In this document: positions 47,548-52,287 of the stretch, in pieces
Position numbering within the stretch: position 1 is the first letter of the stretch
Layout of the letters: each line of letters starts with the position of its first letter
DNA from: a virus
IMG/VR virus record: IMGVR_UViG_3300008120_000012
Span: 30,592 to 94,591 of that record
Direction: 5' to 3' (one strand)
DNA: 64,000 nt
The notes under the pieces: model-generated
The model's input: the letters and a program-made list of their open reading frames with translations, nothing else
Told to the model about the DNA's origin: nothing
Databases searched by the model: none
Made by a program: the position numbers and the translations under genes

Positions 47548-47551
47548 ATAT

Positions 47552-47577
47552 GTATACCTGCCCTAGTGGGGGTATAC
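47552..47577 (+). promoter_or_regulatory. Inverted repeat in hsp20 leader (operator or hairpin)
   Basis: GTATACC and GGTATAC are perfect 7-bp arms separated by 12 bases that contain a further CCC/GGG pairing. It covers the predicted transcription start of the hsp20 gene. As DNA it could be an operator; as RNA it is a 5'-terminal hairpin. Confidence 0.6.
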
Positions 47578-47604
47578 AAAATAACTCGCTGAAAAGGAGA
47601 AAAA

Positions 47605-48024
47605 ATGGTTACAACATATGCATGGGACCTTTTCAAGGATCCCTTTTTTATTGGCTTCAATCGTGAGATGGAGCGTCTAAGTAATGTACAGTTGGCATCT
47701 CGCCAAACTTCATACCCACCATACGATCTAGTAAAGGTTGATGATGATACTTATAAATTGTCATTAGCGGTTGCTGGATTTGCTAAGGATGATATTGAGG
47801 TATCTGTTGACAATGGAACTCTGATTGTACAGGGTGAAGGCACAGATACTGAAGATGTTGAAGTAGTTCACAAAGGAATTGCTGGTCGTAAGTTTACACG
47901 TACCTTTGCCCTTGGTGAATATATGGAAGTTACTGGTGCTACCGTTAAGGATGGTTTGCTTAATATTGATATTGAGCGTATTATTCCTGAAGAGAAAAAG
48001 CCAAAAGTAATTAAAATCAAGTAG
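47605..48024 (+). CDS. Small heat-shock protein (Hsp20/alpha-crystallin)
   Basis: A 139-residue chaperone. The N-terminus (WDLFKDPFFIGFNREMERL) resembles IbpA. The alpha-crystallin domain follows (YPPYDLVKVDDDTYKLSLAV, AGFAKDDIEVSVDNGTLIV), with FTRTFALGEYMEVTGATVKDGLLNIDI containing the conserved A-x-x-x-(D/N)-G-(I/L)-L signature. The C-terminal I-x-I-like KVIKIK completes it. It is ATP-independent and holds unfolded proteins. Strong SD (AAAAGGAG). Confidence 0.92.
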   Translation: MVTTYAWDLFKDPFFIGFNREMERLSNVQLASRQTSYPPYDLVKVDDDTYKLSLAVAGFAKDDIEVSVDNGTLIVQGEGTDTEDVEVVHKGIAGRKFTRTFALGEYMEVTGATVKDGLLNIDIERIIPEEKKPKVIKIK

Positions 48025-48030
48025 TATAAT
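48022..48030 (+). promoter_or_regulatory. -10 box (TAGTATAAT) of structured RNA
   Basis: TATAAT at 48025-48030 overlaps the hsp20 stop; predicted RNA start 48036-48038 is the first base of a long stem. Confidence 0.5.
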
Positions 48031-48035
48031 ATAAT

Positions 48036-48122
48036 AAGTCCCCACACAGGACCTTAGAGATGGATTAGTTACCCATTTATATAACCTGGCCATCGTGCCT
48101 GAATTACCTGTGTGGGGCTTTT
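48036..48122 (+). ncRNA. Structured small RNA closed by an 11-bp terminator stem
   Basis: CCCCACACAGG (48040-48050) pairs perfectly with CCTGTGTGGGG (48107-48117), followed by CTTTTAATT. The flanking AAG/CTT extends the stem. The 56 bases inside can form further helices, for example AGATGG with CCATTT and GGC with GCC, or alternatively GATGG with CCATC and GTTA with TAAC. No ORF with a start occurs inside. A promoter precedes it and hsp20 lies upstream. It resembles a compact sRNA or ligand-type RNA rather than a plain terminator; the family is unknown. Confidence 0.6.
48107..48122 (+). terminator. 3' arm and U-run of the structured RNA
   Basis: The last arm CCTGTGTGGGG plus CTTTT acts as an intrinsic terminator for the RNA and for read-through from hsp20. 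Confidence 0.65.
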
Positions 48123-48128
48123 AATTAC

Positions 48129-48137
48129 TGATATAAT
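48129..48137 (+). promoter_or_regulatory. Extended -10 promoter (TGATATAAT), near leaderless
   Basis: The hexamer ends 9 bases before the ATG at 48147; no SD. Confidence 0.55.
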
Positions 48138-48146
48138 TATCTTGCT

Positions 48147-48422
48147 ATGACTGAAAAAGAATTAGCAACATATAATAAGCAGCAATATAAAAAAAGATTG
48201 ACTGAGATTAAGCAGTCAAGTGGATGTGTTGACTGCGGAGAAAAGAATCCAATAGTTCTTGATTTTGATCATATAAAAGATAAAAAATATAATGTATCAA
48301 GAATGATTCATGATGGATTTTCTTGGGCAGCCATAAAAAAGGAAATAGCAAAATGCGAAGTTGTTTGTGCTAATTGTCATAGAATTAGAACTCATAGTAG
48401 ATTGACTGAAAAAGCAGTTTGA
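48147..48422 (+). CDS. HNH endonuclease
   Basis: A 91-residue HNH protein. Zinc ligands are in CVDCGEKNP (about residues 27-30) and CEVVCANCH (about 71-79). The catalytic region is VLDFDHIKDKK, where D-H provides the general base, followed by ANCHRIRTH. Small free-standing HNHs act in homing, packaging or host DNA degradation. It has its own leaderless promoter. Confidence 0.87.
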   Translation: MTEKELATYNKQQYKKRLTEIKQSSGCVDCGEKNPIVLDFDHIKDKKYNVSRMIHDGFSWAAIKKEIAKCEVVCANCHRIRTHSRLTEKAV

Positions 48423-48431
48423 TGGTATAAT
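48423..48431 (+). promoter_or_regulatory. Extended -10 promoter (TGGTATAAT), leaderless
   Basis: The hexamer ends 6 bases before the ATG at 48438; no SD. Confidence 0.6.
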
Positions 48432-48437
48432 ATTAAT

Positions 48438-48638
48438 ATGGAATCAAACAAAAGAACACTTTTAAAAACAGCAAGTTGGGAAACCTTTCACCTAGTAGGT
48501 GTTGCAGGAGTAATTTATTTATTTACTGGTGAATGGGAATATGCAAGTCTTGGTGCTTTAATGTATATCGCATGGGAAGCACTTGGCTATTATCTTCATG
48601 AAAGAGTCTGGGCAAGATTTGGAAAGAAGATTAAGTAA
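48438..48638 (+). CDS. DUF2061-like small membrane protein
   Basis: A 66-residue membrane protein. KRTLLKTASWETFHLVGVAG, a second hydrophobic segment and the C-terminal YYLHERVWARFG match the DUF2061 pattern (Lys-rich start, two helices, LHERVW). Function in host or phage is unknown. It overlaps the next start by one base. Confidence 0.72.
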   Translation: MESNKRTLLKTASWETFHLVGVAGVIYLFTGEWEYASLGALMYIAWEALGYYLHERVWARFGKKIK

Positions 48639-52002: not shown

Positions 52003-52287
52003 ATGAAGCAACATCTATGGAAAGATAATGCTTCGTGTTTAGGTCTTGACACAAACTTATTTTTTGATAAATATGAAGAGAACGAATCATTAAGATCTGG
52101 CGTAGACAATATATGTCTTAATTGTCCAGTATTAAAAACATGTTTTGCCGTTGGTATATCTGGCAAAGAATGGGGAGTTTGGGGCGGAATTTATTTAGAA
52201 GGTGGAAAAATTTCTAAAGAATTTAACAGTCACAAAAATAAACAACAATGGGGTAAAGTTTGGATATCCCTAACAACGGAGGTGTAA
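52003..52287 (+). CDS. whiB: WhiB-family transcription regulator
   Basis: A 94-residue Fe-S protein with Cys12, Cys38, Cys41 and Cys47 (C-x25-C-x2-C-x5-C), the [4Fe-4S] ligands of Wbl proteins, and the downstream GVWGG turn (EWGVWGGIYLEGGK). Wbl proteins exist only in Actinobacteria and their phages and bind the housekeeping sigma factor. A phage copy may redirect host transcription or give superinfection exclusion, as known for mycobacteriophage WhiB. SD GAGGT. Confidence 0.9.
   Translation: MKQHLWKDNASCLGLDTNLFFDKYEENESLRSGVDNICLNCPVLKTCFAVGISGKEWGVWGGIYLEGGKISKEFNSHKNKQQWGKVWISLTTEV

Follow-up and report, generated by a model that had tools for sequence, protein, structure and literature searches.

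A conserved small RNA with a predicted three-way junction, apparently undescribed so far, carried as an accessory element by large phages probably infecting freshwater Actinobacteria

Results

The locus downstream of hsp20

The window, a stretch of 64,000 nucleotides of viral DNA, holds an hsp20 gene (47605-48024, + strand; Pfam HSP20, E 8e-19) followed by an HNH endonuclease gene (48147-48422, + strand; PHROG HNH, E 1e-24), both considered as context only. The intergenic gap between them, from the hsp20 stop at 48024 to the HNH ATG at 48147, measures 122 bases. It opens with a promoter -10 box composed of two overlapping TATAAT hexamers (48025-48030 and 48030-48035, + strand), without a conserved -35, and continues with a perfect 11-bp inverted repeat, hereafter P1, whose 5' arm (CCCCACACAGG, 48040-48050) and 3' arm (CCTGTGTGGGG, 48107-48117) enclose an interior of 56 bases (48051-48106). 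A C and then TTTT (48118-48122) follow P1 as a terminator-like tail, and a further TATAAT at 48132-48137, distinct from the box of the RNA, serves as the -10 box of the HNH gene; all these features lie on the + strand. The -10 box, the 11-bp stem, the 56 enclosed bases, the T-tract and the 122-base gap had all been listed in the initial annotation, and direct reading of the sequence confirmed each of them.

The predicted sRNA gene proper occupies 48040-48117 (+ strand), with a transcript that would extend from about 48037 to 48122. The covariance model matched the window at 48039-48118 on the + strand with 91.3 bits (E 7e-24), compared with 23 bits on the - strand, and the folding energy of the window RNA was -30.8 kcal/mol against -19.5 +/- 3.1 kcal/mol in dinucleotide shuffles (z -3.6).

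Two further observations concern the neighbouring genes. An inverted repeat, GTATACC..GGGTATAC (47550-47578), lies between the hsp20 -10 box and start codon as a candidate leader structure. The TATAAT boxes of the HNH and DUF2061 genes (48132-48147 and 48426-48438) end only about 6-10 bases ahead of the start codons, which suggests that both mRNAs are near-leaderless.

Conserved fold and covariation

A structural alignment of 73 sequences was used to compare the fold across the family. In the comparison for compensatory changes called for in the initial annotation, all 11 pairs of P1 covaried while pairing was kept, with 98.6% of cells paired. When the pairing partner was slid by 1-3 columns, the share of paired cells in the whole structure fell from 96% to 43-62%, and its covariation score did not exceed 0.090, compared with 0.318 in register. 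The RNA strand is the + strand, because P1 contains G-U pairs there (58 cells, read as A-C on the opposite strand) and because of the 91 versus 23 bits of the covariance model.

Within the interior, the 5' strand of P2 (AGATGG, 48058-48063, + strand) pairs with its 3' strand (CCATTT, 48073-48078, + strand); its pairs were 94.7-100% paired, two of them with double changes, and at one position five kinds of standard pair occurred. The P2 loop (48064-48072, + strand; ATTAGTTAC in the window) is the best-conserved part of the RNA, with nine nearly invariant bases, NUUAGUUAC. The P3 hairpin (CTGGC-CATCGT-GCCTG, 48086-48101, + strand) is formed by 48086-48090 with 48097-48101 and includes one U.U mismatch; its three core pairs were 88.6% paired, its loop ends in GU, and it is rebuilt with other complementary sequence in two variant groups (ACC-G-UGGC-GCAA-GUCA-GGU and ACC-G-UGCG-UCU-CGCA-GGU). 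Taken by itself, the interior had a covariation of 0.247, whereas shuffles gave 0.183 and slid pairings no more than 0.106; this modest value is attributable to an interior that hardly varies.

The best-supported fold predicted from the alignment is a three-way junction in which P1 closes P2 and P3, with covariation that supports P1 strongly, P2 moderately and P3 weakly. Energy folds of four other family members (L003, L206, L290, L082) yielded the same junction, and the mean pairing probability of P2 in single-sequence folds was only 0.43. The minimum-energy interior of the window differs from the conserved one: its long-range helix of GAUGG with CCAUC is not conserved in the family, whose conserved interior consists of the two hairpins P2 and P3.

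Family size and database searches

Scans of IMG/VR showed that the RNA element is carried by at least 171 loci that differ in their flanks; 97 different RNA sequences were counted across the collected loci. A scan with the outer arms only matched at least about 120 contigs, and interior-only scans brought additional contigs bearing other arms; the loci selected by P1 and those selected by the interior were checked apart to handle selection bias. Conservation of the outer stem alone, the pattern named in the initial annotation as contrary to its proposal, was not what the comparison returned: the interior core was present in all 118 loci chosen on P1 alone, among the matches listed. Likewise, TAGTTACC was found in 47/47 distinct interiors not chosen by the interior, and 41 distinct P1 arm pairs occurred among 112 loci not chosen by P1. 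The many contigs of the arm scan and the 91-bit model score indicate that the element is not a product of chance.

The Rfam search suggested at the outset assigned the RNA to no Rfam 15 family, the window giving only a tRNA at the gathering threshold and chance matches only (best E 0.2) at a relaxed threshold. A tRNA or tRNA-like identity was rejected, as neither ARAGORN nor Rfam gave a tRNA match for the RNA. Among 50,697 phage records (INPHARED) there was no real match; the similarity to Limnohabitans phage DC31 (E 3) is due to chance, spans 22 bases of the P3 region only, lacks P1 and was missed by the model. A fixed-pattern search of bacterial and archaeal genomes returned 10 matches, all due to chance and scoring at most 14.9 bits by covariance model. 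No paper describing the RNA was found in the literature, the comparison being made outside the catalogue of Fremin and colleagues, reportedly an extensive published listing of viral RNA candidates drawn from IMG/VR. The element represents a real, conserved family of phage small RNAs, apparently undescribed so far.

Selection on the interior

Selection was examined on loci fetched solely by hsp20 protein similarity. In 99% of the 210 pairs compared, the interior was more alike than hsp20 was at its fourfold-degenerate sites; where protein identity averaged 68%, the interior reached 0.74 and the fourfold sites 0.45. This contrast is the cleanest evidence of function. A simple intrinsic terminator was rejected on the same grounds, the 56-nt interior being conserved beyond neutral sites and the U-tract, though present, being short. 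The initial preference for a compact structured RNA over a plain terminator is strongly supported by the conserved interior together with the covarying P1, and we hold with high confidence that the element is a functional structured RNA.

Transcription signals across the family

Upstream of P1, 89% of 152 distinct loci had a match of at least 5/6 to TATAAT, usually at a distance of 6-8 nt; in shuffles the figure was 16%. No TTGACA was seen at -35 across the family, where base composition tracks the hsp20 coding sequence. Across 130 loci, the first 8 nt after P1 showed an excess of T (3.9 versus 2.9 in shuffles), and a run of at least three T followed P1 in 58% versus 23% in shuffles; in 108 of the 130, an exact TATAAT stood no more than 45 nt beyond the RNA, giving the next gene a box of its own. 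As the U-tract is short, and absent in some loci (e.g. L248), termination may be inefficient or achieved by other means. In L046, L214 and their kin, the RNA sits behind another conserved module and not at the promoter. At the sequence level, the -10 box at a fixed distance and the varied gene contexts point, with good confidence, to an independently transcribed RNA.

Gene neighbourhoods

The gene upstream of the RNA is hsp20 in 139/171 loci and the gene downstream is HNH in 128/171, other downstream genes encoding an MPYxVG protein, a Dps-like protein, a zinc ribbon and others. The upstream gene is divergent in L249, L268, L271 and L280, some loci place the RNA between a divergent gene and a Dps-like gene, and the downstream gene is convergent in L250, L255, L258 and L290. 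Four contigs that carry the RNA (G012, G018, G022 and G023) gave no hsp20 match.

Other RNA-like modules nearby

The gap adjacent to hsp20 also houses several further undescribed RNA-like modules. An H-type-pseudoknot-like element recurs in the gap after hsp20 in L008-L080 (e.g. L016, L028, L032) and also stands upstream of the three-way-junction RNA in L337, L343 and L356. In one example, GACCTGAGCATGTCCATAAACTGCTC, a short variable hairpin bears a loop complementary to a downstream stretch; the loops comprise GAGCA, GGACA, GGGTA, GGGCA and others, and 60 distinct instances contain 9 different exact helix-2 pairs, with no Rfam match in the tested loci. Six loci (L012, L033, L046, L050, L206, L214) present a conserved module, GTCGGGGGAGACAGCGAC...AAATA(A)CTGG, directly after the -10 box downstream of hsp20, followed by either the pseudoknot-like element or the three-way-junction RNA. 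In six others (L032, L049, L057, L067, L077, L078), hairpins TCTGCACCCCGTCACTGGGGAGTCGCAGA and CGGGTCGCTACCCG are chained ahead of the pseudoknot-like element in one leader.

Distribution and host

Each of 17 long contigs carries one copy of the RNA. Seven other hsp20-bearing contigs gave no RNA match, each single absence being soft as these contigs are possibly fragments. Among these seven are G001 (92 kb), with a TerL 79% identical to that of the window, and G002 (106 kb), with one 76% identical. G005, which shares the terminase (in the 76-79% range with G001 and G002), likewise gave no RNA match; all three contigs may be incomplete. Conversely, the RNA-bearing G022 gave no match to the terminase or portal of the window. 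This is the pattern of an accessory cassette that would move between phages. A packaging RNA was rejected as an identity, G001, G002 and G005 having the terminase without the RNA, with the same proviso that these contigs may be incomplete.

A WhiB-like regulator is encoded in the window (52003-52284), with 56-72% identity in five related genomes, and WhiB is a marker of actinophages (PMC6802176, PMC10202952). The portal of the window is closest to those of Streptomyces phages (~45% identity). Taken together, WhiB and the portal likeness suggest a freshwater actinobacterium as the probable host, and hosts of the family are probably freshwater Actinobacteria. The isolated Nanopelagicales phages have 39-kb genomes, in whose description hsp20 and noncoding RNA are unmentioned (PMC10202952).

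Discussion

The reading that we favour, with a probability of roughly three in four, is that the element constitutes an independent sRNA gene, some 80-88 nt long and acting in trans, which large phages, probably of freshwater Actinobacteria, carry as an accessory cassette. Transcription would start from its own -10 box, immediately ahead of P1, and end at the short U-tract after P1. P1 would join both ends of the RNA and protect them, may double as a terminator stem, and would hold the three-way junction so as to display the NUUAGUUAC loop on P2 together with the second hairpin. A constant loop displayed from a junction is usually a binding surface, and the rigid core may bind a protein or nucleic acid of the host or the phage, in a host-takeover, counter-defence or regulatory role. 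A scan for antisense pairing at phage translation starts, covering phage mRNAs in 64 ortholog groups from 6 genomes, revealed no conserved complementarity, and an antisense sRNA of phage mRNAs was rejected for want of a consistent site there.

Of the three options left by the initial annotation, the independent sRNA gains support from its own -10 box and from its occurrence as an apparently autonomous cassette in many settings, and the varied neighbours exclude the other two, a 3'UTR-derived RNA of hsp20 and a ligand RNA acting as a cis leader, as general explanations. A cis riboswitch or attenuator, in which a ligand-bound core stabilises the P1 terminator and shuts off the next gene, would account for a closed junction with an invariant core running into a T-tract, which resembles an aptamer-terminator fusion, and for the HNH gene lying next in three quarters of loci (128/171). 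It is nevertheless unlikely: the genes that follow have nothing in common (HNH, MPYxVG protein, Dps-like, zinc ribbon and others), most have a TATAAT of their own, the next gene is convergent in the L250/L255/L258/L290 lineage, and no alternative antiterminator pairing was seen. With such unrelated, separately promoted genes behind it, the element was not classed as a 5' leader of single-pathway genes. An hsp20 3'UTR element, either a terminator or stabiliser or the source of a 3'UTR-derived sRNA, is still less probable. The hsp20 gene does precede the RNA in 139/171 loci, its stop codon touching the -10 box, but that conserved box separates the stop codon from P1, and the RNA also occurs behind genes other than hsp20, in gaps flanked by divergent genes, and in contigs without detectable hsp20.

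We consider very improbable a DNA-level feature, whether an attC-like recombination site or mobile-element end folding as single-stranded DNA or a homing site for the neighbouring HNH enzyme. The inverted repeat, the accessory distribution, the presence in otherwise different phages (G022, which lacks a window-like terminase or portal) and the frequent adjacency of HNH would suit it. Yet the G-U pairs are confined to one strand, the promoter keeps a fixed distance, and the arms vary by compensation around a constant interior, which is the reverse of attC architecture; moreover, a close HNH member is dispensable, the best match in G020 and G021 being 40-42% identical and located elsewhere. The P2 helix and loop also contain a start, one codon and a stop in the form [A/G]UG-GNN-UAG (48060-48068 in the window), and the minigenes of the lambda bar loci, which trap tRNA, provide a precedent for reading it as translated. 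[AG]TGGNNTAG occurs in 85/86 distinct interiors, and first-base changes (A to G) still yield a start codon. On the other hand, the start codon falls within the P2 helix, whose pairing accounts for the same bases, a well-placed Shine-Dalgarno sequence is not found in all groups, and L062 breaks the frame and keeps the fold. A translated minigene is accordingly the most remote of these readings; its frame stays a lead, much of which P2 pairing explains.

For the favoured trans-acting sRNA, a more specific and rather doubtful possibility is that this three-way-junction RNA, both autonomous and mobile, would disable or divert a factor of its freshwater actinobacterial host, such as a defence nuclease, RNA polymerase, the ribosome or a tRNA, with the invariant UUAGUUAC loop as contact site. 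If true, this would add a functional class to those known for phage RNAs. Phage structured small RNAs with such compensatory evolution are few, and those combining autonomous signals with an accessory distribution are rarer still. As freshwater actinophages are abundant, the RNA is probably common in lakes, and its closing stem, constant loop and natural presence or absence among close relatives offer handles for target finding.

Several known systems invite comparison. The packaging RNA of phi29-type phages has paired ends and a three-way junction, features also predicted for the present phage RNA, which is about half its size and is missing from relatives that share the terminase. Purine-type riboswitches likewise consist of two hairpins and a conserved core in a three-way junction closed by P1, but the window RNA gave no Rfam match even at the relaxed threshold and does not form the leader of any regulated gene. 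GOLLD and ROOL are structured RNAs that occur in bacteria and in mobile elements, and GOLLD is known from lake samples (PMC12286853); they are several hundred nucleotides long and oligomeric (PMC12286853), unlike the window RNA, which has no Rfam match. Finally, cluster A mycobacteriophages (D29, L5, StarStuff) produce stable non-coding RNAs (PMC5712189), which resemble the present family in being small actinobacteriophage ncRNAs of unknown function, one of them an intergenic candidate (D29 63-64) (PMC5712189). Their main species are toxic and derive from a region of ~500 bp behind the early Pleft promoter (PMC5712189); no shared sequence or fold is known, and the window RNA, at ~80 nt, has a -10 box of its own.
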